DNA from: Chromatiales bacterium
Lineage (GTDB): Bacteria > Pseudomonadota > Gammaproteobacteria > JACCYU01
NCBI GenBank assembly: GCA_031177845.1
Contig: JAPSGG010000009.1
Coordinates: forward strand, 1-12,719
Reading direction: 5' to 3'
DNA length: 12,719 nt
Shown: positions 959 to 12,684 of the stretch, piece by piece
How the letters are laid out: each line of letters opens with the position of its first letter
Numbering within the stretch: position 1 is the stretch's first letter
Notes under the pieces: model-generated
Database searches by the model: none
The model's input: the letters and a program-made list of their open reading frames with translations, nothing else
Told to the model about the DNA's origin: nothing
Position numbers and translations under genes: made by a program

Positions 959-3900
959 TTGTCTGCCACAGCTACCGCGGTGCGGCGGACCGCGGCCAAG
1001 ATCACCCAGCCGCGGCTCGCCCGGCCGCTCACCCGCCAGCGCCTGCACGACGTGCTCGAAGGCATGCTCACCGAGCATGCCGTTGTGTGGATTGCCGCAC
1101 CGCCCGGGTTCGGCAAGACCTTTCTGGTCTCGAGTTACCTGGAGAGCCGCGGCCGGCCCGTGCTGTGGTATCAGGTGGACGAGCGGGATGAGGACATCGC
1201 TAGCTGGTTTCATTATTTGACCTTGGCGGCCCTGCGGTTCGACTCTGCCGAATCTCCAGATCTGCCCAGCTACAGCCCCGAGTACGCCAGAGGGCTGACG
1301 GCCTTCGCCCGCAGCTTCTTCGGCCAGTTCTACGCAGGCCTGCCGGAACGCACTGTGCTGGTGTTCGACAACTACCAGGAGGCGCCGGAGGATGCCTCCC
1401 TGCACCAGGTCATGCAGGTCGCCGTGGACGAGTTGCCGGGCGATTGTCAGATGATCATCATCAGTCGCCATCTGCCGCCAGCGGCTTACATGCGCCAACA
1501 GGCCAACCAGCGGCTCGCGGTCCTGGACCGGATCCAGCTTGGCTTCAATGACGATGAGGCGCTCGCCTTGCTGAGCCTGCGTGGTCACGACGTGAGTCAC
1601 GCCACAGAGCTCAAGAGCTGGCTGGCGATCAATCGGGGCTGGGCCGCGGGGCTGGTGTTGTATTCGGAATGGTCTCGGCTAGTCCACGCGGAGCTCGGGC
1701 GACTGGAACCCTTGGGAATTGAGGCGGTGTTCGATTATTTCGCGGGCGAGATCCAGTCGAGGATCGCCGAGCAGGAGGCCCGCTTCCTGGCGCAGAGCGC
1801 CCTGTTGCCCGTGATGAAACCGGCGCTGGCAGCCGAACTCACTGGCTATGCGGCCGCACGTGAACTGTTAGGTCGTCTGCACCGGCGAAATAGCTTTACC
1901 ACCCGGCATGACGAACCCTCCGTTGCCTACGAGTTCCATCCGCTGTTCCGTGAATACCTGCTGAAGGAGCTGGAGCGGACATATGACCAGGCAGCCCTAG
2001 GCGAACTCCACGCGAAAGCGGCGAACCTGCTCGCGCGGGACGGCCAGATAGAGGCGGCGATGGACCTGCTGGCGAAAGCGCAGCGCTGGCCGCAAATGGC
2101 AGCGCTCCTACGCGAGCATGCCGCCGAGTTGATCAATCACGGCCGCCACCGACTGATAGAGCAGTGGCTTGCGCAGTTTCCGGACGAGCTGTTCGATCAG
2201 GACCCGTGGCTCGCCTATTGGCGGGGTGCCTGCAGGATATTGGATTCAGCTCCGGAGAGTCGGCTGTGGATGGAACGGGCGTTCGACGGCTTTGAGGCAA
2301 CCAAGCAGATCGAAGATCTTTATCGGGCCTGGTGCGGGGTGTGTCGCGCGATCCGCTTCACTTGGGGCGACTACAGCCAGTACGACCGCTGGATGGACAA
2401 ACTGGAGGCTCTATTTGAAGACTATCCTCAATTTCCGAGCGCAGTATTCGAATGTGAGGTGCTGCTGCACGCTCTAGGCGCGCTTCATTGGCGCAATCCT
2501 ATCCATCCCAGAAGGCGGGAGTGGACTACCAAAGCATTGGCACTGGCCGACACCTCAGGCGACCGGCGTCTTCAGGTGGACGCACAGACGTGGGCGGCAT
2601 TCTCTGAGTTGATCTACGACGAGGTGCCGAAGGCGACCGCACGGATCCGGCAGCTGGAAGCCCAGCTTTCTACTCCAGTCGATGATCCTTTCGTCGACAT
2701 CTTCGCGCACTTCGTTGTCGGCGTGCACGCGTATGCAGTCGGGGATTCTTTGCGGGCGGCTGCTATCTTTCAAAATCAGATCGAGCACGCCCACGCGCTG
2801 GGACTCTTTACATGGGATATGGTCCTATATGTGTGGTACGGCTTCGCCCGGCTCGCGCAGGGCGACATCGATGGCGCCGTGGAGGCGCGGAGCAGGCTCG
2901 AGAATCATCCCGCGATCCAAGGCGCCTTTGGGGCCCACTTTTACCATCAACTCTGCGCTGCCGTCGGACTGGAGCGGGGGGACGCCGAGCAGGCCCTGCA
3001 TCACGCGCAGGAGATGTTAGCCGCGGCCGGGCGGGCCGGGAGCCCATTCATGCAGGCCTGGGCGCTCGCCACCCTATCGGGGGTGAAGGTCTTAACTGGA
3101 GACGATCACTCTAGAGACGATCTGGATGCGGCACTCAAGGCCAGCCGTCGGCTCGGCTCCCACTGGCCGGAGGCTAGCGGGCTGATCAGCCGGGCACTAT
3201 ATGCCTGCCAACATGAAGCCCCGGAGCACGCCAGGCGCGTGCTCGAGGAGGCTATGAAATTAATGCGTGCCCAAACGCTCCTGCACATGGGCTTTGCCCC
3301 CGAGATGGTGCGTCTGTTTGCGACTCGGGCGCTGGAATATGGGGTAGACGCAGACTACGCCCGCAAGCTCCTGATGGCCAATCCGGGCGTCGCAGAGCGC
3401 ACGCCGCCAGTTCATCTAGAGGCCTGGCCTTGGGCAATGAAGGTCTACACGTTGGGACCATTTCGGCTCGTGAGGCACGGTCAACCCGTCACCTTCGGGC
3501 GCAAGCCGCCCCGCCGGCCGCTGGAGGTGTTAAAAGCCATCATCGCGATGGGTGGTCGAGAAGTGCCGGAGCATCGCATCATCGACGCCTTATGGCCGGA
3601 CGACGAAGCCGATGCCGCTAAGAACGCATTCTCCACGGCACTCAATCGCTTACGCAAGATCGCAGGCCGCGATCTGATTCGGCTCGAGGGCGGTAAACTC
3701 AGCCTGGATGCGAACCACTGCTGGGTCGACGCGTGGGCCTTCGAGAGCTTGCTCAAGCGGGCCGACCCGGGCGCGCTGCGACAAGCCGTGGAGCTGTACC
3801 AAGGCAAGTTTCTTGCGCAGGACGCCGAGGCGCCGTGGGCTATGCAACTGCGCGACCGCCTGCAGGGCCGCTATGCCGAAGCGGTTGTACGCCTCGCAGA

Positions 3901-4141
3901 GACCTACCAGAAGGCCGGCGATCATGAAGAGGCCGCAGCTTTGTACCAGCGAGGGCTGAAGATGGACGACCTGCGCGAGGACTTCTACCAGGGCGTGATG
4001 CGCAGCTACCTGGAACTCAATAGACCTGAGGATGCTCGGCAGGCCTTCGAGTTCTGTAAGCGCAGGCTCGGCATCCGCCTGAATCGCAAGCCCTCAGCCG
4101 CGACCGTGGCCTTGTTTGAATCCATTGAAAGACGGGGATAG
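959..4141 (+). CDS. STAND NTPase / BTAD transcriptional activator (MalT-SARP hybrid)
   Basis: This is a 1060-residue cytoplasmic regulator. Residues about 20-300 form a MalT-like STAND NTPase with a Walker A (APPGFGKT, 47-54) and a Walker B (VLVFD, 133-137). Residues about 340-820 are helical, TPR-like repeats of the kind that bind inducers or proteins. From residue 827 (MKVYTLGPFRL) runs an OmpR/SARP winged helix including RPLEVLKAIIA and ALNRLRK, followed by a BTAD to the end. AfsR places its DNA-binding part at the N-terminus; here it is C-terminal. The LuxR helix-turn-helix of MalT is absent. The start is TTG with GGGGG 5 bp upstream; the frame closes at TAA 920-922, so only short alternatives exist (ATT 935, GTG 980). 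The gene is intact, unlike its paralogous remnant at 7242-7590, and it probably activates the two promoters at 4403-4443 and 5438-5479. Confidence 0.88.
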   Translation: MSATATAVRRTAAKITQPRLARPLTRQRLHDVLEGMLTEHAVVWIAAPPGFGKTFLVSSYLESRGRPVLWYQVDERDEDIASWFHYLTLAALRFDSAESPDLPSYSPEYARGLTAFARSFFGQFYAGLPERTVLVFDNYQEAPEDASLHQVMQVAVDELPGDCQMIIISRHLPPAAYMRQQANQRLAVLDRIQLGFNDDEALALLSLRGHDVSHATELKSWLAINRGWAAGLVLYSEWSRLVHAELGRLEPLGIEAVFDYFAGEIQSRIAEQEARFLAQSALLPVMKPALAAELTGYAAARELLGRLHRRNSFTTRHDEPSVAYEFHPLFREYLLKELERTYDQAALGELHAKAANLLARDGQIEAAMDLLAKAQRWPQMAALLREHAAELINHGRHRLIEQWLAQFPDELFDQDPWLAYWRGACRILDSAPESRLWMERAFDGFEATKQIEDLYRAWCGVCRAIRFTWGDYSQYDRWMDKLEALFEDYPQFPSAVFECEVLLHALGALHWRNPIHPRRREWTTKALALADTSGDRRLQVDAQTWAAFSELIYDEVPKATARIRQLEAQLSTPVDDPFVDIFAHFVVGVHAYAVGDSLRAAAIFQNQIEHAHALGLFTWDMVLYVWYGFARLAQGDIDGAVEARSRLENHPAIQGAFGAHFYHQLCAAVGLERGDAEQALHHAQEMLAAAGRAGSPFMQAWALATLSGVKVLTGDDHSRDDLDAALKASRRLGSHWPEASGLISRALYACQHEAPEHARRVLEEAMKLMRAQTLLHMGFAPEMVRLFATRALEYGVDADYARKLLMANPGVAERTPPVHLEAWPWAMKVYTLGPFRLVRHGQPVTFGRKPPRRPLEVLKAIIAMGGREVPEHRIIDALWPDDEADAAKNAFSTALNRLRKIAGRDLIRLEGGKLSLDANHCWVDAWAFESLLKRADPGALRQAVELYQGKFLAQDAEAPWAMQLRDRLQGRYAEAVVRLAETYQKAGDHEEAAALYQRGLKMDDLREDFYQGVMRSYLELNRPEDARQAFEFCKRRLGIRLNRKPSAATVALFESIERRG

Positions 4142-4332: not shown

Positions 4333-4343
4333 GGTTACCGATT
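4333..4343 (+). promoter_or_regulatory. distal inverted half-site of promoter module 1
   Basis: GGTTACCGATT is the reverse complement of the core of the heptamer site at 4421-4427 (GGTAACC). It starts 77 bp before the first heptamer of the proximal pair. The second module has the same sequence (GTTACCGATT, 5372-5381) at an almost equal distance. The conserved position suggests a second binding site used for looping or cooperative binding; this is inferred. Confidence 0.5.
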
Positions 4344-4402: not shown

Positions 4403-4443
4403 TGGTATCGGTGACCTAACGGTAACCAGTGTCCCCTTAGTAT
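4403..4443 (+). promoter_or_regulatory. SARP-like promoter module 1
   Basis: Two heptamers, GGTGACC (4410-4416) and GGTAACC (4421-4427), start 11 bp apart. A -10-like TAGTAT (4438-4443) lies 10 bp downstream. SARP activators are known to bind direct heptamer repeats of 11-bp period close to the -35 region, so the layout fits the winged-helix/BTAD regulator encoded upstream. The sequence from 4403 aligns without gaps to 5438-5486. Transcription would start near 4450, giving an approximately 50-base leader before the ATG at 4502. Confidence 0.65.
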
Positions 4444-4449
4444 GGCCCC

Positions 4450-4470
4450 ATCGAGCAGCTGCTGCTCGAT
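4450..4470 (+). other. perfect palindrome at the start of leader 1
   Basis: ATCGAGCAGC and GCTGCTCGAT flank a single T. As RNA it folds as an 8-bp stem with a 5-base loop, right at the predicted 5' end of the message. It may stabilise the transcript or be bound as DNA. The second promoter module has no equivalent. Confidence 0.45.
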
Positions 4471-4501
4471 ATCTTGTTTAACCCTACTGAGGAGAAAGAC
4501 C

Positions 4502-4855
4502 ATGAACACCAACACCACCCGCAAGTCATCGACGCTGGCCGTGACCTTAGGCTTGCTGGCCCTGAGCGGCCCACTCAGCGCCGGCCAGGAAACCCCCGGG
4601 CTCTGGGGAGAGCAGTTCCAGAACGCCTATAACGGGGTGTCCGCGCAGGCGTCGACCGGCCCCGGCCCGAGCAGCCTACCGATCTGGGCCGGCCACTTTG
4701 AGGATGGATACCTGCCACCCACGGAGCAGAGTGCGTTTGCTCGCTTTGCGGCCCTTGGCGAGGTGACGGTGGGCGAGGCGACTACTCGTCCCCAGGGCAA
4801 TCACGTGATCGACCATCTGCTGTGGAGATCCCAGTATCCAGACTATCCGCGCTAG
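4502..4855 (+). CDS. small exported protein of unknown function (117 aa)
   Basis: I do not recognise this family. The ATG at 4502 was chosen because GAGGAG (4490-4495) lies 6 bp before it; the in-frame ATG at 4442 lies inside the predicted promoter and leader. The protein has a classic Sec signal peptide: MNTNTTRKSS, then a hydrophobic TLAVTLGLLALSG core, with likely cleavage after LSA or SAG near residue 28. No lipobox Cys is present. The mature part is about 90 residues, with no cysteine, and is rich in Gly, Pro and aromatics (LWGEQFQNAYNG, IWAGHFEDGYLPP, LLWRSQYPDYPR). The two WxxxFxxxY-like stretches, WGEQFQNAYNG and WAGHFEDGYLP, look like a degenerate internal repeat. It is the first gene under promoter module 1, so it is a likely target of the BTAD regulator. 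Confidence 0.65.
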   Translation: MNTNTTRKSSTLAVTLGLLALSGPLSAGQETPGLWGEQFQNAYNGVSAQASTGPGPSSLPIWAGHFEDGYLPPTEQSAFARFAALGEVTVGEATTRPQGNHVIDHLLWRSQYPDYPR

Positions 4856-4873
4856 ACGCGGCGGGTCAGCCAG

Positions 4874-4904
4874 GGTCTGTGCCGGCAGCCGGCCGGCACA
4901 GGCC
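4874..4904 (+). terminator. strong GC hairpin after the exported-protein gene
   Basis: CTGTGCCGGC and GCCGGCACAG form a perfect 10-bp stem, extended by one G-U and two G-C pairs to 13 bp, around the loop AGCCG. It starts 19 bp after the stop codon. No T-run follows, so termination may be partial or the hairpin may protect the 3' end of the message. Confidence 0.5.
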
Positions 4905-5020
4905 AACCGCTGATCGACAGTATGGTCGAGCCAGTCACGGACGCCGCCAGCATTGCGAGATGGTTGCAATCTTTGAAACACCCTTCTAATAACGGCGTGC
5001 GAAAGCCCGGATGAAGTGCC

Positions 5021-5278
5021 ATGCACACGAACACCCTTGGAGCCTCAACGAACGCGGCACGTGGGGTTAGCCCTGCCCAGGCAGATCCAACCTCGGCTGC
5101 GGTCCACTTGCCCACGTTCATGGCCCGCGACCTGCGCGCCCAGGTCCAATGGCTGGCGTCTCGGGCGCAGGCGTATGGGTATGCCGATGTGGACGAGCTG
5201 TTTGGCCGGGCACCGGCGGTGTACACGCAGCTCGCCGTACAGTGGCGCCAGACCCATCCGCTCCCCGCCATGGCATAG
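5021..5278 (+). CDS. hypothetical protein (85 aa)
   Basis: I do not recognise this protein. It has no signal peptide or membrane segment. Residues 1-30 are polar and low in structure; residues about 30-80 look helical and amphipathic (FMARDLRAQVQWLASRAQAYGY, VDELFGRAPAVYTQLAVQW). The ribosome-binding signal is poor (GGATGA 6 bp upstream). A 30-codon frame starting MVEPVTDAASIARW (4922-5014) ends 6 bp before this ATG and could be a leader or chance. The gene lies between the two SARP-like promoter modules and may be read through from module 1. It may be a real small gene or a remnant; the moderate confidence reflects its plausible composition only. Confidence 0.45.
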   Translation: MHTNTLGASTNAARGVSPAQADPTSAAVHLPTFMARDLRAQVQWLASRAQAYGYADVDELFGRAPAVYTQLAVQWRQTHPLPAMA

Positions 5279-5371
5279 ATGGAAGGATCGGGATGCCGTG
5301 ACTCCTGATGCCTATGCTCTAACCGATTCGAAGGTCAGATACCAGCCATGCGCTAGCTAACGTGCGGATCC

Positions 5372-5381
5372 GTTACCGATT
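5372..5381 (+). promoter_or_regulatory. distal inverted half-site of promoter module 2
   Basis: GTTACCGATT is identical to the site at 4334-4343. Its heptamer CGTTACC starts 75 bp before the first heptamer of module 2, against 77 bp in module 1. A GGTATTA (5382-5388) starts 11 bp after it, so this copy may itself be part of a direct-repeat pair. Confidence 0.45.
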
Positions 5382-5437
5382 GGTATTAGCTTGCCTCATG
5401 GACTTTAATTCAAGCGTTCAAGAGCGGCAGTTCAGTA

Positions 5438-5479
5438 TTGCAATCGGCTACCTATCGGTAACCTTCTTGCCCATAGTAT
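5438..5479 (+). promoter_or_regulatory. SARP-like promoter module 2
   Basis: GGCTACC (5446-5452) and GGTAACC (5457-5463) start 11 bp apart, and TAGTAT (5474-5479) lies 10 bp downstream, exactly as in module 1. The distance from TAGTAT to the start codon is also alike (54 versus 58 bp). It precedes the broken monooxygenase gene, so the regulatory input has outlived its target operon. Confidence 0.62.
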
Positions 5480-5533
5480 GACCTCGTCGAACCCAATAGT
5501 GGCTCCGCAAAGCAGGAGAGAACGGAAAAAGCC

Positions 5534-5768
5534 ATGCAAACGCAACAATTCGATGTGGTCGTGGTCGGTGCCAGCGTTGCCGGCTTGTACGGCGGACACT
5601 CTGTTCGCTCGCCGAGGCCTGAACGCAGCGCTGGTGGCGCGCAGTGCGGACTTCAAGGCCTACAAGCGAGTGTGCACTCACTTCATCCAAGCCTCGGCCG
5701 TGCCCGCAGGCAAGCGGCTGCCGCCGTCCATCTACACTGACGAGGACAACGACCATGAATATTCCTAA
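5534..5768 (+). pseudogene. FAD-dependent monooxygenase, N-terminal remnant
   Basis: The start MQTQQFDVVVVGASVAG is the beta-alpha-beta FAD-binding fold with a GxxxxG-type loop, typical of aromatic or polyketide flavin monooxygenases. The frame then breaks: one extra T in TT at 5585-5586 diverts the reading. In the +1 frame the family sequence resumes (CTADTLFARRGLNAALVARS, then DFKAYKRVCTHFIQASAVPAGKRL). After about 65 restored residues the homology stops, whereas the family is about 400 residues long. The remaining codons (PPSIYTDEDNDHEYS) run into the next gene's ribosome site. So there is both a frameshift and a large 3' deletion, and no functional enzyme is possible. The gene lies under promoter module 2, with a purine-rich AGGAGAG upstream. 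Confidence 0.75.
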
Positions 5769-6632
5769 GGCAGCACAAGATTACTTCGACTCCTGGAACC
5801 GCCACGATGCCGCCGGCCTCGTCGCCTGTTTCACCAGCCGCGGCACCTACTCCGATCCTACCGCCGGCCAGAATCTACAGGGCGAGGCGATCGCCGCGTA
5901 TGCAAGGGGACTGTGGGCGGCATTCTCCCGATCTCCGATTCGAGATCGGGAGAATGGCGGCAACTGCTGACGGAGCCCTCGCCGCGGAGTGGCGCATGTG
6001 GGGCACCAGCACGGGCTCCTGCCGGGCATTGCCGCCGACAGGCCGGGCCGTGGACCTGCCGGGCGTAGATATCATCGAGCTGGGCGGCGGGAAGCTCGCC
6101 TCGGTGATCGGCTATTTTGACTCGCGCACCGTGCCCGAACAGCTGGGGCTCCAGGTGGTGGTCCAGCCTCAATCCATCGGCCCCTTTTCATTCGGGATCA
6201 GCACCTCGCCGCAGACGGGTAAAACAGTCAAACCGGGCGCCTTCAGCGTCACGAAGCTCGAGGCGCGTTCGGACGAGGAAGTCCAGCAGGATTAGAGAGC
6301 TTGCCCGGCAAACCGCGACTGAAATGTTGCAGATGGAGGGATTCGTCAGCCTGATGAGTATGACAGTCGGTCGCCGTATGATGACCTTTGCGGCCTGGGA
6401 ATCGCCGGAGAACCCACGACAATTGGCGCGCGGGGGCACGCATGAACAGGCGATGAGAAAATTCTTCGGTCCGGAGCTGGCGGCCGGAGGCTGGACCGGC
6501 GTCTGGATACCGGAGCGCATCAATGCCACCTGGGCGCGCTACCCAGCCTGCGCGCGGATGCTCAGTGTCGACAAGGCTGAAGACCGGTATTCCTGCGGCA
6601 CGGCATTACCGGAGCCGGTGCCTTATTGGTAA
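5755..6632 (+). pseudogene. SnoaL/NTF2-like plus ABM-like fusion protein, two frameshifts
   Basis: The gene starts at ATG 5755 with GAGGA 8 bp upstream. Residues 1-57 (MNIPKAAQDYFDSWNRHDAA, then TYSDPTAG) open a SnoaL-like NTF2 fold, as in polyketide cyclases and small hydrolases. An extra C in CCC at 5927-5929 breaks the frame. The next frame continues with DLRFEIGRMAATADG, AAEWRMWGTSTG and VIGYFDSRTVPEQLGL. An extra G at 6289-6290 creates the TAG at 6293. The last frame completes a second domain resembling a dimeric alpha/beta-barrel (ABM-type) fold: AFSVTKLEARSDEEVQ, then FVSLMSMTVGRRMMTFAAWE. Restored length is about 291 residues, ending PEPVPYW at 6632. In life it probably worked with the adjacent flavin monooxygenase on a ring-type substrate (inference). 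It cannot make full-length protein as it stands unless the indels are sequencing errors. Confidence 0.75.
5921..5956. repeat. perfect 15-bp inverted repeat at a frameshift site
   Basis: CATTCTCCCGATCTC (5921-5935) and GAGATCGGGAGAATG (5942-5956) are perfect reverse complements around a 6-base loop, CGATTC. They lie inside the SnoaL-like gene. The C that breaks the reading frame is part of the left arm: without it the arms would pair with one bulge. Confidence 0.85.
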
Positions 6633-6725
6633 GGTGCGGGTGAACCCCCAATAAGAACCCAGGGATGAGCCATGGGTCGCCCCAGCCACGCTGCCACTAG
6701 CAAAAATAGGACTGAGGAGCATGTG

Positions 6726-7241
6726 ATGAGCTCGCATCAGCAAGTGCCAGCCGGTGGGTCGCTGCGTTACGCGTGGCTGGTGGTCGGCCTGCTGACGGTG
6801 GCGTATGTATTCTCGTTCGTCGATCGCCAGATCCTGACCCTCATGGTAGGGCCGATCCGCCAGGATCTAAGCATCAGCGATACCCAGATGAGCCTCCTGA
6901 TGGGGTTCTCCTTTGCCCTGTTCTACACCATCTGCGGCATTCCCCTGGGACGCCTTGCCGACCGCGGCAGCCGGCGCGCGCTGGTCTGGTCGGGGGTTGG
7001 TGTTCTGGAGCGTGATGACCGCCGCGTGCGGGCTGGCGCAGCGATACTGGCATTTGTTCGTGGCGCGGATCGGGTAGGGGTTGGCGAAGCGGCTCTCTCG
7101 CCAGCCGCTTACTCGATGATCGCGGACTACTTTTCACGCGAGCAACGGGCGACTGCGATCAGCGTCTACTCGATGGGCATTTACGTTCGGTCCGGGCTAG
7201 CGTTTCTTATTAGCGGGCAGGTTGTTAAGTTCGCCGAGGTC
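6726..7241 (+). pseudogene. MFS transporter, N-terminal half (truncated, frameshifted)
   Basis: The start is ATG 6726, with GAGGAG at 6714-6719; an upstream in-frame ATG at 6672 lacks such a signal. The start of a 12-helix major facilitator is clear: helix 1 (YAWLVVGLLTVAYVFSFVDR), helix 2 near residues 54-72, and motif A GRLADRGSRR at 75-84. Near 6999-7004 one extra base shifts the frame, and a missing G at GGG 7072-7074 restores it. The codons between encode junk (LERDDRRVRAG), while the +1 frame reads FWSVMTAACGLAQRYWHLFV, the expected helix 3-4. Afterwards VGVGEAALSPAAYSMIADYF and a helix-5 segment follow. Homology ends at about 7241, after roughly 170 of about 430 residues, where it runs in frame into a regulator tail. 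It would have exported or imported the substrate of the neighbouring enzymes (inference). Confidence 0.8.
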
Positions 7242-7590
7242 CATGGCCCCTTGCTGCTGCCGTTGCTGGGCGAGGGCGAGGCACCTTTGGCTCTGTCCGT
7301 GCGAGACCGTTTGCAAGAGCACTACTGCGAGGCCGTAGCGCGTCTCACTGGGGCCTATCAGCGGGACGGAGATCATGAGAGCTCCGTGGGATTATTCAGG
7401 CAGGGACTCTCGATGGACGAGTTGCATAAGGATTCCTATCAGGGCCTCATGCATGGTTACTTGGCACTGAACAGACCCCGCTGATGCCCGGCAGATCTTC
7501 GAGTCCTGCAAGCGCCGGCTCGGCATCCGCCTAAACCGCAAGCCCTCGGCCACGACGGTCGCGTTGTTTGAATCGGTCCAGGGTGCGTGA
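7242..7590 (+). pseudogene. C-terminal BTAD remnant of a second SARP/STAND regulator
   Basis: Starting near HGPLLLP, this stretch aligns with the last ~110 residues of the intact regulator at 959-4141. Shared segments include RDRLQ, GDHE, YQG, LNRP and CKRRLGIRLNRKPSA. By hand count about 62 of 97 positions are identical. An extra C in CCCC at 7476-7479 creates the TGA at 7482; in the shifted frame it continues as ADARQIFESCKRRLG to a TGA at 7588-7590. The NTPase, helical middle and winged helix are all missing. Because it joins the MFS fragment in frame, a deletion between a transporter gene and a downstream second regulator gene explains it best. The residual protein has no DNA-binding domain. 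Confidence 0.82.
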
Positions 7591-7642: not shown

Positions 7643-8506
7643 CTACTCCGCGGCCATTTCTTTCGCGATTGCGTAGATCTCCTCGGCGTCTATGATCTGA
7701 TCGTTGCGGTCGAACAATTGCGCGATGCACGTACGATGGACCTTGAGTTTCAGCGCACCCAGTCCAATCGCACCAATAGCCTTCTTGCCGTGGCGCTCCT
7801 TGATCTTGTCCATCATGTCCACGCCTTCAAGCCCAAGTGGCGGTGTCGCATTGGTGTCGGCCATGGCTTCGATCGTGGGGTTGTCGCGCCAGTGTTCCTC
7901 GTTCAAGATCTGCACGCCACCTGCACCTGCGCCGAATACAATCTGAGCGCCCTTCAACGCCTTGGCTCGAGATGCTTCATCGGCCGCTGCGGCAGGTTTG
8001 ATCTCAACGTCGAAACGCTCCCGAATCAGTTTGCACGCAGCTTGCGAGCGCTTCATATCGCGTGAAGTGATGGTCACCTCCGCGCCTTCCTTCGCGAGCA
8101 GCGCCGCGGCGCGTTGGCCCACCGGGCCCGTGCCAGCAAGCACGACTGCGCGTTTGCCAGCAAGTGGAATGGCAGTGCTAAGCAGCGCGACGCCGGCTGC
8201 GGCAGTCGTGTTGCTGCCGTTGCTGTCGAACATGACCGATACCCGGAAGTCGGCGAAAAATTTCTTGCGCACGGCCTTGAGCAGATTCTGGCCGGCTTCC
8301 ATGTTGCTGCCGCCGATGAATAGTGCAGTAAACTTCTTCTCCTTCGGTGAGCGCGTGAAAATTGCGCCATCGATTAGCGGCCCGACGTTATTGGGGTTCA
8401 GCCCACCGTAGGTCTTCACGTGGTCGGCACCGCCATCGTAAGCGACGACGGTGTCGAATACGCTGGGAATGGGGTCGGTGTCGAGTTGAAACAGCAATTT
8501 CTTCAT
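7643..8506 (-). CDS. mtdB: methylene-tetrahydromethanopterin dehydrogenase MtdB
   Basis: This 287-residue cytoplasmic enzyme oxidises methylene-H4MPT to methenyl-H4MPT with NAD(P)+, a step in formaldehyde oxidation to formate in methylotrophs. Recognition rests on near family-wide segments: MKKLLFQLDTDPIPSVFDTV, YDGGADHV, VMFDSNGSNTTAAA (91-104), a GTGPVG nucleotide loop (125-130), and the C-terminal LKLKVHRTCIAQLF. Length matches the family. The frame stays open 45 codons further upstream, but those codons come from the palindromic repeat at 8531-8605 (VIPAQAEIQ), so the ATG at 8504-8506 is the start. MtdA is the alternative, but the opening FQLDTDPIPSVFDTVVAYDGGAD favours MtdB. It is the last of three leftward one-carbon genes; the repeat separates it from ppc. 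Confidence 0.92.
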   Translation of the reverse strand: MKKLLFQLDTDPIPSVFDTVVAYDGGADHVKTYGGLNPNNVGPLIDGAIFTRSPKEKKFTALFIGGSNMEAGQNLLKAVRKKFFADFRVSVMFDSNGSNTTAAAGVALLSTAIPLAGKRAVVLAGTGPVGQRAAALLAKEGAEVTITSRDMKRSQAACKLIRERFDVEIKPAAAADEASRAKALKGAQIVFGAGAGGVQILNEEHWRDNPTIEAMADTNATPPLGLEGVDMMDKIKERHGKKAIGAIGLGALKLKVHRTCIAQLFDRNDQIIDAEEIYAIAKEMAAE

Positions 8507-8530
8507 AAGGCACTCGCGGCTCTCCCGAGC

Positions 8531-8605
8531 GTCATTCTGGCCAGGGATTGGCCAGAACCCAGTACCAGGGATGGAATTCTGGATTTCGGCTTGCGCCGGA
8601 ATGAC
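8531..8605. repeat. REP/MITE-like palindromic intergenic repeat
   Basis: This is a 75-bp element bounded by GTCATTC and GAATGAC. It holds a perfect hairpin (TTCTGGCCA / TGGCCAGAA, 8535-8557) and a second imperfect one (TTCGGC / GCCGGAA, 8585-8600). Translated leftwards it gives VIPAQAEIQ, the tell-tale peptide of a repeat family scattered widely in proteobacterial genomes. It lies between ppc and mtdB, where it may act in mRNA 3'-end stability or attenuation. Confidence 0.8.
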
Positions 8606-8660
8606 AACGGGGTTACACCCTTGATTACTGAACCAGCACACCAGCCCTGCTGCATTTTAC

Positions 8661-11444
8661 TTATCCCGTCCACCCCAGGCCGGAGGCTACGCAGTTGATC
8701 GAAAGCAGCAACGAGATCAGATATTCCTGCCGACGTGGATCGCTCCTATCGGTGCTGCGGAAGCGCTTGATCAGTGTGACCTGCTCGTGTCCCACGTGGT
8801 TGAGGGTGGAAAGTCGCCTTCCGATGCGCTCGCGGTATTGCGGGAAGCGTGCGCAGATCTCTTCCGTGCCGTTGACCGCGAGCACCGTATTGACCGTGCG
8901 GTGATACTCGTCTTCCACCAGCTTGAAGATTCGATCGCGCAGTTCGCGATCCGGCACGAGCTCGGCGTACGCGCAGGCGATGTCGAGATCGACCAGTGGA
9001 AGTGTCTTCTCCACTTCATCGATGATCAGCCTGAACAGGCGCGACTCATTGAACATGCGCCGTAACAGGTTTTCGCCCGATTCGCCGCGCACCGCAACGA
9101 TCTGCTCCAGCGCGGTGCCTACCCCGTACCATCCGGGGATCACCATGCGGTTTTGGCTCCACGCGAAGACCCAAGGGATCGCGCGCAGATCTGCCAGAGT
9201 CGTGGCCCCGGTGCGTCGGGCCGGTCGCGAGCCAATATTGAGTCTCGCGAGCTCGTCCACCGGACTTGCTGCCTGGTAGAAGTCGACCAGGCCGGGTTGT
9301 TCGATCAGGTTTCGGTAGGCAGTAAAGGAAAGACCCGACAGGGCCTCCATGACTTCGTCGAAATCCGGATTTGTCTGTAACTCTTGCTCGCGCCCCGACA
9401 TCAGGCTGTGTTCCAGGACGCTGGCGCATAGTAGTTCCATCTGATATTGCGCCACGCCCCGATTCGCGTATTTGCCCGATACCACCTCGCCCTGTTCGGT
9501 GACGCGCATGCGGCCGTGGATCGTGCCTGGCGGCTGCGCGGCGATTGCCCGGCCGGTGGGTGCGCCGCCGCGTCCCACCGATCCGCCGCGGCCGTGGAAG
9601 AAGGAGATCGGCAGACCGCGTTCTTCGCCGACTTTCTTTAATCGTGTCTGCGCCTTGGAGACTTCCCAGATAGAGCACAGGAATCCACCGTCCTTATTAG
9701 AGTCGGAATAGCCGACCATCACCTCCTGCACGCCGCCAAGCTCGCGCAGCAGAGTGCGCCTCACCACCGGCACGCCGAGGAGCTCACGCATGATGGAGGG
9801 CCCGTTGCGCAGATCCTCGATGGTCTCGAGCAGCGGGATCACCATCAATTCACAGCTCTCGACGTTATCGCGGTCGGAAAATAGGCCTGCGTACTTGGCC
9901 ATTAGATAAATGCCAAGGACATCCGCGACGGTGCGGGTCATGCTCAACACGAAGCCGCCAAACGCCTGCCGGTCGACACGATCCCGAGTTTCTCGCACCA
10001 GCTTCAGCATTCCTAGCGTCGATTCCGTGGGTTCGGGAAGTCCGAAGGACGGCAGCTCTTCCAATGGGCGCACCAGCTCTGCCAGCAGCCACTGTTTCCA
10101 CTCCTCCGAATCGGGTTTGGGCGGCTCCCGCCCCCCGTTGATCTGCTTGTAAATGTCGGCTAGCGCCGCATTCGTCTTGCCGGTATTCTCGCGCAGGTCC
10201 ATACTGAAGGTGCGAAACCGGAACGCTTCGACTTGCCGCCGCAGGGGCGTGACGATGTCGCGTGCAATGCCTTCACAGCGCGCCCCAGCCAGTCCAACCT
10301 CTAAAGTGCGGAGATCCTCAATCATTTCGTCCGCCGTCGCGTACCGATTCGGGGGCGCGGTTTCGGTGCCGTCTCTATCGGCGGCGGTCGTTGCATCCAG
10401 CTTGCGCAGTATGCAGGTCGTGAACTGCCGAAATACCTCACCCGGATTGCGGGCCGCGATCTGCTCGCCCGCCCCGGAGGCGGCCAGCAGTTTGCTCAAC
10501 GCCTCGCGAAAGCTCTCCGGCACCTCCACCGCGTGTTGTGCCACGCTCAGCTTGTGGCCCACGCGGTGTAACTCCTGCTGGTATCGCGCGATGGACGCTT
10601 GCCGGTACAGGAACAGGATTTCACGCGTGATGTCATTGGTCACAAACGGGTTGCCGTCGCGATCGCCCCCGATCCAGGTGCCGAACTGAAAAATGGATGG
10701 AACGTCAAATTTTTGGTGTGGATAAGTCTCTGTCAGCACCTCATCCAGTCGCGCATGCAGATGAGCCATGCCCTCGAACAGGGCATCGTTGAAGAAGTGC
10801 AGACCCCATTCCGCCTCCTGCCGCACGGTGGGTTTTTCCAGTCGGATCTCGCCGGTCAACCATAGTAGGTCGATCTCGGTGCGCAGATCATCGATCAGCG
10901 CCTTGCGCTCGCGCGGGGTCCAACGGGTCAACTCAATCTCGCGCAGCAGCAAGAAGATCCGCCGATGGATCTCGAGCACAGTGATGCGCTTGGCCTCAGT
11001 AGGATGGGCCGTGATCACCGGGCGGATCTGCGCCGAACCTAGCAGCGCCCGAATTTCTTCAACGGGCGTGCCAGCCTTGATGGCTTCGGAGAATGCATGG
11101 GCGAAGGTGCCGGGGACGTGCTCCGGCCCGCGCTCGGTCTCCGTGCGCCGGAGGTTGCGCATAGCCAGGTTCTGTTCGGCGATCGAGAGCAGCCGAAACC
11201 AGATGCCGTGCGCCTGCAGGGTGCGCAGCAGCAGGGCTTGGTTGCCTTCCGGGATCGGTTTGTTCCCTTTGACGATGGGCTCGATCTCAGGGTTACGCGC
11301 GCGGATGACATCGGCGAATAAGCCGGCTAACAGATCGACGACCTGCTCAGCGTAGTCCGAGTCACCGACGCCTAGCGGCGCACCGGAGTATTCGGCGATA
11401 TTACCTACTGCTTTTCGCTTCATCGATGCGCTGTGCTTCGCCAT
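8661..11444 (-). CDS. ppc: phosphoenolpyruvate carboxylase
   Basis: This enzyme carboxylates phosphoenolpyruvate with bicarbonate to oxaloacetate; in the serine cycle it supplies the second carbon-fixing step. With the start at 11444 (MAKHSASMKR) it has 927 residues, normal for bacterial PPC. The key motifs are present: TAHPTEAKR with catalytic His147, GGDRDGNPFVT (259-269), YSDSNKDGG with Lys584, and the glycine loop FHGRGGSVGRGG (616-627). The frame is open 15 codons further up, but these lie partly in the inverted repeat at 11465-11557; ATG 11421-11423 is another possible start. The C-terminus is GLGWTG, whereas the E. coli enzyme ends RNTG, where the Asn binds the inhibitor aspartate; Trp here suggests weaker aspartate control (inference). 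It lies between mtdB and the hydroxyacid dehydrogenase, all leftward. Confidence 0.96.
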   Translation of the reverse strand: MAKHSASMKRKAVGNIAEYSGAPLGVGDSDYAEQVVDLLAGLFADVIRARNPEIEPIVKGNKPIPEGNQALLLRTLQAHGIWFRLLSIAEQNLAMRNLRRTETERGPEHVPGTFAHAFSEAIKAGTPVEEIRALLGSAQIRPVITAHPTEAKRITVLEIHRRIFLLLREIELTRWTPRERKALIDDLRTEIDLLWLTGEIRLEKPTVRQEAEWGLHFFNDALFEGMAHLHARLDEVLTETYPHQKFDVPSIFQFGTWIGGDRDGNPFVTNDITREILFLYRQASIARYQQELHRVGHKLSVAQHAVEVPESFREALSKLLAASGAGEQIAARNPGEVFRQFTTCILRKLDATTAADRDGTETAPPNRYATADEMIEDLRTLEVGLAGARCEGIARDIVTPLRRQVEAFRFRTFSMDLRENTGKTNAALADIYKQINGGREPPKPDSEEWKQWLLAELVRPLEELPSFGLPEPTESTLGMLKLVRETRDRVDRQAFGGFVLSMTRTVADVLGIYLMAKYAGLFSDRDNVESCELMVIPLLETIEDLRNGPSIMRELLGVPVVRRTLLRELGGVQEVMVGYSDSNKDGGFLCSIWEVSKAQTRLKKVGEERGLPISFFHGRGGSVGRGGAPTGRAIAAQPPGTIHGRMRVTEQGEVVSGKYANRGVAQYQMELLCASVLEHSLMSGREQELQTNPDFDEVMEALSGLSFTAYRNLIEQPGLVDFYQAASPVDELARLNIGSRPARRTGATTLADLRAIPWVFAWSQNRMVIPGWYGVGTALEQIVAVRGESGENLLRRMFNESRLFRLIIDEVEKTLPLVDLDIACAYAELVPDRELRDRIFKLVEDEYHRTVNTVLAVNGTEEICARFPQYRERIGRRLSTLNHVGHEQVTLIKRFRSTDRSDPRRQEYLISLLLSINCVASGLGWTG

Positions 11445-11464
11445 GCTTTTTTGCCCGAGCGTGC

Positions 11465-11557
11465 CTCGCGCAAAGGCGCAAGGACGCAAAGTAGCTTAAT
11501 GCCAAGATCGGTCGGTCGTATTCTCACAACCTTGGCGTCTTAGCGCCTGGGCGCGAG
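11465..11557. repeat. 93-bp element with 27-bp imperfect inverted ends
   Basis: The arms 11465-11491 (beginning CTCGCGCAAAGGCGC) and 11531-11557 are reverse complements at 22 of 27 positions, with about 39 bp between them. The sequence resembles the GCGTCTTGGCGTCTTTGCG-type palindromes seen in many bacterial intergenic regions. It fills the gap between the dehydrogenase gene and ppc. It could fold into a cruciform or a long RNA hairpin and separate expression of the two genes. Confidence 0.7.
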
Positions 11558-11594
11558 AGATCTTGGGCCTATCCCCATCCATAGTAGTTCGATG

Positions 11595-12566
11595 TCAGGC
11601 CACCCGGTCGGGCGGTTCTTGGCCTGCGAAGAAGGCGTCCAGATTCTTGAGGACGCGCTCGCCCATGGCGATGCGGGTCTCGCGAGTGGCGCTGCCGAGA
11701 TGCGGCAGGATGACGACGTTTTCCATCTTCAGCAGGTCCGCGGTGATCTTGGGCTCCTGCTCATAGACGTCCAGTGCTGCCCCCGCGATCTCGCCCGCCT
11801 TCAATGCATCGACGAGGGCCTTTTCATCGACCACATCGCCTCGAGCGCTGTTGATGAGAAACGCATGCGGCTTCATCATGCTCAGACGCTCGGCGTTGAG
11901 CAAATGGTGCGTCGAGGCCCCGCCGGGGCAATGGATGGAGACGAAATCGGATTCCTTTAAGACATCCTCGACGCTGTCACGGCTTTCCGCGCCCAATGCC
12001 TTAGCAATCTCGGGCTCGGGTGGAAAGGGATCGTGAAAGATCACCTGCATGCCGAAGCCGTGATGTGCGCGCTTCGCCACCGCGCGCGCGATGCGGCCCA
12101 TACCGATCAGCCCGAGGGTCTTGCCCGTGACGTGCGCGCCCATCATGTGCGTCGGCCGCCAGCCGGTCCAGTGACCGCCGCGCATATGCCGCTCGCCCTC
12201 GCCCGCGCGCCGCGCGACCATCAGCAGCAGCGTCATCGCGAGATCGGCAGTGGCGTCGGTGAGCACCTCGGGCGTATTGGTGACGATCACATCGTGCGAC
12301 TTGGCGGCTTCTACGTCGATATTGTTGAAGCCGACGCCGAAGTTGCCGAGCATCTTCGCGCGGCGCTTATCGATCCCGATGATCTCAGCGGTCATCTTGT
12401 CAGTCACGGTGGGGCAGACCGCATCGGCGGTCTGCAAAGCCTCTTTGAGCTGTGCGTCGCTCATGGGCTTATCGGTCTCGTTCAGTTTGACATCAAAGCG
12501 CTCTTTGAGCTGCAGCTCCACGGGTTTCGGCCACTTGCGCGTAACGATGACTTTGGGCTTTGCCAT
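11595..12566 (-). CDS. hprA: D-2-hydroxyacid dehydrogenase (hydroxypyruvate/glyoxylate reductase)
   Basis: This 323-residue cytoplasmic enzyme starts at MAKPKVIVTR; AGGAG lies 8 bp before ATG 12566, and the longer open frame lacks such a site. It belongs to the D-isomer-specific 2-hydroxyacid dehydrogenases. It has a substrate part with NFGVGFNNIDVEAA (75-88) and a Rossmann part with GLIGMGRIA (152-160). Asp179 at the end of the second strand (IFHDP) points to NADH. Catalytic Arg242 (SARGD), Glu271 (EQEP) and His289 (PHLGSA) are all present. In the serine cycle this reaction turns hydroxypyruvate into D-glycerate, and the neighbouring ppc and mtdB support that role. The symbol rests on that context: a glyoxylate reductase of the GyaR type cannot be excluded from sequence alone. 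Confidence 0.85.
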   Translation of the reverse strand: MAKPKVIVTRKWPKPVELQLKERFDVKLNETDKPMSDAQLKEALQTADAVCPTVTDKMTAEIIGIDKRRAKMLGNFGVGFNNIDVEAAKSHDVIVTNTPEVLTDATADLAMTLLLMVARRAGEGERHMRGGHWTGWRPTHMMGAHVTGKTLGLIGMGRIARAVAKRAHHGFGMQVIFHDPFPPEPEIAKALGAESRDSVEDVLKESDFVSIHCPGGASTHHLLNAERLSMMKPHAFLINSARGDVVDEKALVDALKAGEIAGAALDVYEQEPKITADLLKMENVVILPHLGSATRETRIAMGERVLKNLDAFFAGQEPPDRVA

Positions 12567-12609
12567 ATTTTTGCTCCTGCTTTTTCTAATCGCGACGTAG
12601 GAGAGATCT

Positions 12610-12684
12610 TCAGATCGCAATTACCTGACCGAAGATCGTGACCCAGCTGTTTGCCCCTACGCGCTTCTCGATAATCAAGCTCAT
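12610..12684 (-). CDS. possible 24-residue ORF coupled to the upstream gene
   Basis: On the minus strand an ATG at 12682-12684 overlaps the TGA of the preceding frame (ATGA), and reads MSLIIEKRVGANSWVTIFGQ plus four residues to TGA. The overlap is typical of translational coupling. It could be a small real peptide, a remnant of a longer gene, or chance. It ends 44 bp before the dehydrogenase start. Confidence 0.3.
   Translation of the reverse strand: MSLIIEKRVGANSWVTIFGQVIAI

Follow-up and report, generated by a model that had tools for sequence, protein, structure and literature searches.

The window (the whole stretch of 12,719 nucleotides analysed here) carries on its forward strand the gene of a 1060-residue regulator (959..4141), two short promoter modules, P1 (4406-4443) and P2 (5442-5479), and coding sequence behind each of them. 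The gene behind P1 (4502..4855, +) encodes a 117-aa protein with a hydrophobic N terminus that looks, by eye, like a signal peptide; two relatives, with 69% and 63% identity, are found among ~5.8 billion proteins. An ORF of 85 residues lies between this gene and P2 (5021-5278, +). It has no Pfam or NCBIfam match, and its start, MHTNT, resembles the MNTNT of the 117-residue protein. P2 precedes an operon (5534..7240, +) that begins with an oxidoreductase-like stretch (FAD type, by eye) and continues with a SnoaL-like gene and an MFS transporter (matches to PF07366 and PF07690), its stop-free pieces being spread over three frames. Since the frame of the adjacent PEP carboxylase is open across 942 codons, these frame breaks are read as decay and not as sequencing error. 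A perfect inverted repeat (5921-5956; 15-bp arms at 5921-5935 and 5942-5956, 6-bp loop) is located where the SnoaL-like gene shifts frame. The operon is followed by the C-terminal remnant of a second regulator of the same type, in two frames (7269..7581, +; 53% identity over residues 954-1025 and 81% over residues 1022-1057). P2 is probably the surviving promoter of a dying second cassette. The minus-strand genes at 7643-12620 form a serine-cycle cluster (methylene-H4MPT dehydrogenase-like, PEP carboxylase and 2-hydroxyacid dehydrogenase), from which the host is probably a serine-cycle methylotroph.

The regulator consists of a MalT-type NTPase, a TPR region and a C-terminal winged helix with a BTAD domain. 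Residues 14-419 match the MalT model NF003420 (E 8.4e-51; 173 bits, below the curated equivalog cut-off of 537 bits) and residues 939-1056 match BTAD (PF03704, E 1.2e-15). A profile built from 14 family members, the window's regulator included (A1), matches MalT (8bob, E 7.4e-67) and the MalT TPR domain (1hz4, E 3.5e-9); its positions ~818-1058 match AfsR (8jke, E 1.1e-17) and EmbR (2fez). A winged-helix profile compared with AfsR gives E 4.5e-5. The SARP domain is therefore C-terminal (residues ~820-1058 of 1060), behind the MalT-type part, in the order NTPase-TPR-SARP. A Pfam search of the regulator for the LuxR-type C-terminal helix-turn-helix (GerE) gave no match, BTAD occupying that place. 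By homology, the protein is a STAND ATPase of MalT type in which a SARP domain has taken the place of the DNA-binding part, with the modules of AfsR in reverse order. The preliminary description had seen in this gene a SARP-type winged helix plus BTAD, which AfsR homology and PF03704 bear out; the SARP module is, however, not a stand-alone regulator but the C-terminal part of a MalT-type STAND protein. We refer to such proteins as MalT-SARP regulators.

Alignment to AfsR (8k60, MAFFT columns) places the recognition helix at S892-K900 (AfsR 87-95; S-T-A-L-N-R-L-R-K; 3632..3658, +). Twelve DNA-contact residues are named for AfsR (S46, Q48, W74, P79, S80, Q81, R87, T88, S91, R92, R94 and K95; PMC10936776), T88 and R92 being those that touch bases (PMC10936776). 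The window's protein retains five of the 12, namely the two that touch bases, T88 and R92 (T893 and R897 here), and three of the other ten (W74, R94 and K95). The differences include Q48 and P79, residue 48 being P here and Q in 60 of the 82 family members. Across the family, W74 (82/82 proteins), R92 (81/82) and R94 (81/82) are strongly conserved, conservation being weaker at T88 (T in 57/82) and K95 (K in 42/82).

Both modules have the same layout. In P1, unit 1 (TATCGGTGACC, 4406..4416, +) and unit 2 (TAACGGTAACC, 4417..4427, +) are followed after 10 bp by the -10 element TAGTAT (4438..4443, +); in P2, unit 1 (AATCGGCTACC, 5442..5452, +) and unit 2 (TATCGGTAACC, 5453..5463, +) are followed, also after 10 bp, by TAGTAT (5474..5479, +). 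When both strands of the whole window are scored, the P1 site ranks first and the P2 site second. The heptamer pairs GGTGACC-TAAC-GGTAACC (4410-4427) and GGCTACC-TATC-GGTAACC (5446-5463), with the 11-bp periodicity and the TAGTAT 10 bp further on that had been reported for them, are present at both modules, and the start codons lie 58 bp (P1, start at 4502) and 54 bp (P2, start at 5534) beyond TAGTAT, within the 54 to 58 bp given earlier. The repeat unit is better drawn as an 11-bp NATC[GTC]GTAACC, present as two head-to-tail copies with TAGTAT 10 bp behind the second; unit 1 of P2 (GGCTACC) lacks the near-invariant T of heptamer position 3. The gapless alignment of about 48 bp proposed in the preliminary description is recovered as 36 identical positions out of 50 between 4406-4455 and 5442-5491, and is confined to this core: comparison of the flanks just beyond the ~50 bp showed no comparable similarity.

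A single inverted copy of the operator unit lies upstream of each module, AATCGGTAACC on the minus strand at 4333..4343, 73 bp 5' of P1 unit 1, and AATCGGTAACG on the minus strand at 5371..5381, 71 bp 5' of P2 unit 1. A third, inverted upstream unit was rejected as a general feature, since an upstream match occurs in 7 of 57 sites compared to 3.9 expected from shuffles; five of the seven are inverted, two of those being the window's P1 and P2. In 40 sites a weak, T-rich third repeat (A-T--TGTA-CC-like) is visible in columns -10 to -1 before unit 1 and recalls three-heptamer SARP sites. Autoregulation of the window's regulator through an upstream operator was also rejected: a search of 501-958, upstream of its gene, found no good operator site, the best score being just 12.0.

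In the host genome (2.1 Mb in 408 contigs, 78.5% complete), the pattern GGNNACC-N4-GGTAACC has exactly two matches, P1 and P2, and the reversed-pattern control has none. The genome scan that had been suggested as a check thus finds the motif not to be common at other positions. Similarly, GGTAACC-N10-TAGTAT matches exactly at P1 and P2 only, the next best matches carrying two mismatches; at three mismatches this pattern is uninformative (141 matches vs 346 in the reversed control). Over 94 genomes, GGNNACC-N4-GGTAACC gives 29 matches in 22 genomes vs 26 in 23 for the reversed control, and none of 24 stretches around matches outside the window (up to 1.5 kb per side) encodes a relative of the regulator. 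The scan being at control level, with no regulator relatives beside the matches, the window's heptamer differs from the consensus of the family. The family pattern itself, at three mismatches in the host genome, exceeds its control by little (20 matches vs 12), so only matches with one or two mismatches were used. One such match (C70:2236, two mismatches) was discarded as chance, having no -10 at the right gap. The best match of the genome to the family pattern (one mismatch, the pattern having been drawn up afterwards) belongs to the regulator's own-genome paralogue (contig C207, 38% identity), where AATCCGTACCC-AATCGGAACCC-N10-TAGTCT stands upstream of a SnoaL-like gene.

The architecture was compared across 80 named loci, taken as the best of 234 that one collection scan confirmed; some are near duplicates (L111/L134, L148/L168), so that counts are not fully independent. 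A model-free test was applied to loci with at least 100 bp of downstream sequence, N runs being masked. A lag-11 repeat (8-of-9) is found within 300 bp past the regulator stop in 31 of 75 loci from the best 80 of 234, and 29 other lags between 4 and 33 give 0-9 of 75 loci in the identical 300-bp region of this same best-80 set. Lag-11 controls, again among the best 80 of 234, give 3/71 at 300-600 bp, 5/80 in the last 900 bp of the gene, 1/51 at 3 kb distance and 8/78 in the upstream 300 bp. A model-based scan of these best 80 of 234 loci places 36 of 51 period-11 sites with a score of at least 17 in the 2 kb downstream of the regulator on the same strand; periods 9, 10, 12 and 13 yield 0, 0, 2 and 1 sites. 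Its unit model was drawn up after some matches had been seen, and the model-free lag test is therefore the cleaner of the two.

The -10 element recurs at the same distance. Above the score cut, 40 sites were retained from the 80 loci (best 80 of 234, some being too short downstream); although picked by their repeats alone, 21 of the 40 have TANNNT at a gap of exactly 10, the 17 other gaps between 3 and 20 giving 0-2 each. A second score counts the -10 but ignores which bases occupy heptamer positions 4-7; it reaches at least 14 in 56 of 81 regulator flanks vs 9 of 122 far stretches, and at least 17 in 28 of 81 vs 0 of 122. Within the window's own class, a downstream site scoring at least 14.5 is present for only 7 of 22 regulators. 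The operator architecture recurs beside diverged homologues (~30% identity) in other phyla. As far as these sequences indicate, the operator is in most cases placed directly behind the MalT-SARP gene and would serve the adjacent, otherwise unrelated gene. The earlier suggestion that the promoter sequence is under selection agrees with this recurrence of repeats, N10 and -10 beside homologous regulators, the own-genome paralogue included. That of a small dedicated regulon outside actinobacteria is supported, the host being gammaproteobacterial by kinship; the system is a member of a widespread family, and its second operon has decayed.

The family pattern was also searched, at up to two mismatches, in 14 genomes picked via 16 of the loci. 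It gave 49 matches vs 14 in the reversed control, 16 of the 49 being the sites used to pick the genomes. At up to one mismatch, six further loci (7 sites) were found, three of which adjoin another family regulator (L203, L207, L223); the other three have no family regulator within about 5.7-9.4 kb, one search being limited by contig ends. A stretch of 18 kb (L220) contains two strong operator sites 196 bp apart (about 8551 and 8747, -) and no family regulator.

The genes behind the sites are diverse. Thirty first genes, hand-picked and with start codons set by a crude rule, were scanned: 17 have a Pfam family above the curated cut-off (L120 and L136 doubtful) and 13 have none. The families include acetoacetate decarboxylase, NosD/beta-helix, a PEP-CTERM protein, a TpsB-type secretion protein, YadA adhesin, PPIase, NrfD, KAS III and MFS. 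The genes behind P1 and P2 had been noted as unrelated, and first genes in the relatives likewise fall in many different families. A small protein family of ~75-86 residues recurs downstream in eight loci (L090, L097, L099, L103, L107, L128, L136 and L161). Its L161 member starts with an MQSYIVRIYR-like sequence, a similar ORF is seen by eye in L022, and a Pfam scan of the L107 ORF gave no match. The targets in L203, L223 and L097 are small and apparently exported, with a GTGKYAGI/GTGKFKGI-like or DVKG-DNLESK-like stretch by eye, and possibly form one family.

Covariation between regulator and operator was measured as mutual information (MI) over 42 regulator-operator pairs and 1173 combinations of winged-helix residue and operator column, against shuffles that ignore kinship. 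The first rank pairs residue 87 with heptamer position 6 of unit 1 (z 8.6), and the unit 2 equivalent holds rank 4 (z 6.3); residue 88 with position 5 of unit 2 is fifth (z 6.2) and residue 91 with position 4 of unit 2 sixth (z 5.2). Ranks 2 and 3 fall to residues 32 (z 7.2) and 55 (z 6.7), which lie outside the recognition helix, so that z alone is no proof. At a cut of 14 (56 regulators), heptamer position 6 of unit 1 is G for 13 of 13 regulators with E87 vs 9 of 43 with other residues, and that of unit 2 for 13 of 13 vs 7 of 43; in unit 1 the association is also seen at a cut of 11 (14/15 vs 15/65) and of 17 (10/10 vs 1/18). Where residue 91 is H, position 4 of unit 1 is A in 29 of 32 cases vs 9 of 24 for the rest (cut 14); where it is N, position 4 is G in 5 of 5 in unit 1, the window's P1 (GGTGACC) included, and 3 of 5 in unit 2. 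In trees that leave out the DNA-binding domain, the supported branches provide three independent contrasts for residue 87 and seven for residue 91, and significance is not reached. Of the three E87-G contrasts, an average of 1.8 have G moving in the same direction and none in the opposite one, which is not significant either; no contrast on the trees runs opposite to the E87 or residue 91 associations. Recognition-helix residues covary with operator bases, few of the changes being independent on the tree.

If the -10 hexamer is assumed to start at -12, the units, read from [TGC]GT..., occupy -40 to -30 and -29 to -19. The afs box occupies that same -40 to -19 place (PMC10936776). The AfsR structure shows R92 touching the T of unit position 3, and T88 the base pair of position 5 (PMC10936776); in the MalT-SARP family, unit position 3 is almost always T (39/40 and 36/40 sites in the two units).

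Architecture, homology, recurrence, spacing and covariation are thus established at the level of the sequence. The modules are very probably SARP-type activator operators fused to -10 elements and read by the regulator at 959-4141 or a close paralogue. Binding, dimer formation, activation and control by ATP and ligand are proposed here by analogy with AfsR and MalT. The ATPase/TPR part would sense a ligand and, with ATP, free or assemble the SARP domain, and two SARP domains would bind side by side as a dimer on the two 11-bp repeats. With the repeats in the -35 place, the bound dimer would recruit RNA polymerase to a promoter that has a -10 and no recognisable -35. P1 would drive the gene of the 117-aa protein, and P2 would formerly have driven the operon now decayed.

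Since the repeats overlap the -35 position, a protein bound there could also block the polymerase, and the regulator might repress P1 and P2. We consider this unlikely, as a promoter with no recognisable -35 would have weak basal activity and the BTAD domain and the register match those of the AfsR box, on which the SARP dimer, once bound, touches both RNA polymerase and sigma region 4 (PMC10936776). The modules could also be true conserved promoters read by another protein, such as an unrelated response regulator or an ECF sigma factor whose -35 resembles GGTAACC, the nearness of the MalT-SARP gene being incidental; the three extra high-scoring loci that have no such gene nearby would fit this. 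It is a shade less probable again, because sites concentrate right behind MalT-SARP genes in many genera, MI rank 1 and ranks 4 to 6 fall on recognition-helix residues of the MalT-SARP protein, and the 10-bp gap is unlike sigma -35/-10 spacing, the 17-bp position (CCTAAC, CCTATC) falling inside the repeats. That the likeness of P1 and P2 reflects local duplication only, of a site without selection, is scarcely credible: the remnant at 7269-7581 does suggest that the locus once held a second copy of the regulator, but the similarity is limited to ~50 bp around the repeats and the -10, and the same architecture stands beside ~30%-identity homologues in other phyla.

Read as activator operators, the promoters and their regulator belong, on sequence grounds, to a family of cassettes in Proteobacteria, Nitrospirae and others that appear to drive unrelated genes. 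We lean, with some reserve, towards a broader proposal, in which MalT-SARP proteins constitute a large undescribed class of self-contained regulator-promoter cassettes (Proteobacteria, Nitrospirae and a few other phyla). Each would have, next to it, an afs-box-like promoter of its own serving an unrelated gene, with surface or exported proteins as the products in several cases, and a readable code would relate helix positions 87, 88 and 91 to heptamer positions 6, 5 and 4. The SARP operator plan, with its register to the -10 retained, goes together with a MalT-type sensor across many Gram-negative lineages (234 loci confirmed by one collection scan). The operator sequence allows the target genes of hundreds of uncharacterised regulators to be predicted, and the family offers a natural series of protein-operator pairs for testing DNA reading by a winged helix.

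What is known of SARP activators comes mainly from the antibiotic switches of actinobacteria. Outside that phylum, HilA of Salmonella combines an OmpR-type winged helix with a BTAD and is said to bind direct repeats near -35; it is a virulence island activator with no ATPase and a different operator. MalT and the LuxR-type large ATP-binding regulators share the NTPase and the TPR region with the window's regulator (14-419 against NF003420, TPR against 1hz4), which has a SARP domain instead of a C-terminal LuxR helix-turn-helix recognisable by Pfam. In PimR-type SARP-LAL regulators the SARP domain is N-terminal. These also join a SARP domain to a LuxR-large-ATPase-type region and use heptamer repeats with 4-bp spacers, but are known from Streptomyces (PMC10972967). 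Among the literature matches listed, a set in which subscription papers are mostly outside the scope, none describes the MalT-SARP class, its operator or how widely it occurs. In one survey, proteobacterial matches are judged to be mostly lacking the helix-turn-helix or the BTAD domain (PMC7040171). SARP-type operators are already known in Streptomyces, as is a SARP-type regulator in Geobacter sulfurreducens, GSU1771, which has the winged helix and activator domain outside actinobacteria but an N-terminal receiver domain and not a MalT ATPase (PMC10599522). Gel shifts on promoters were carried out for it, and the term 'direct repeat' has 0 occurrences in the main text of that paper (PMC10599522).

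A close parallel is AfsR of Streptomyces coelicolor, a large SARP, with its afs box. Both proteins have a homologous winged helix and BTAD, with T88 and R92 kept, and combine STAND ATPase and TPR parts with the SARP domain in one polypeptide; both operators consist of two 11-bp direct repeats in the -35 place, ending shortly before the -10. The order is SARP-NOD-TPR in AfsR, whereas here the SARP domain is C-terminal and the ATPase/TPR part is of MalT type. The afs box unit is CGTTYATCGNN, that of the MalT-SARP family NATC[TGC]GTANCC and, unlike AfsR, the MalT-SARP regulators have hosts that are not actinobacteria and predicted targets that are adjacent, unrelated genes.
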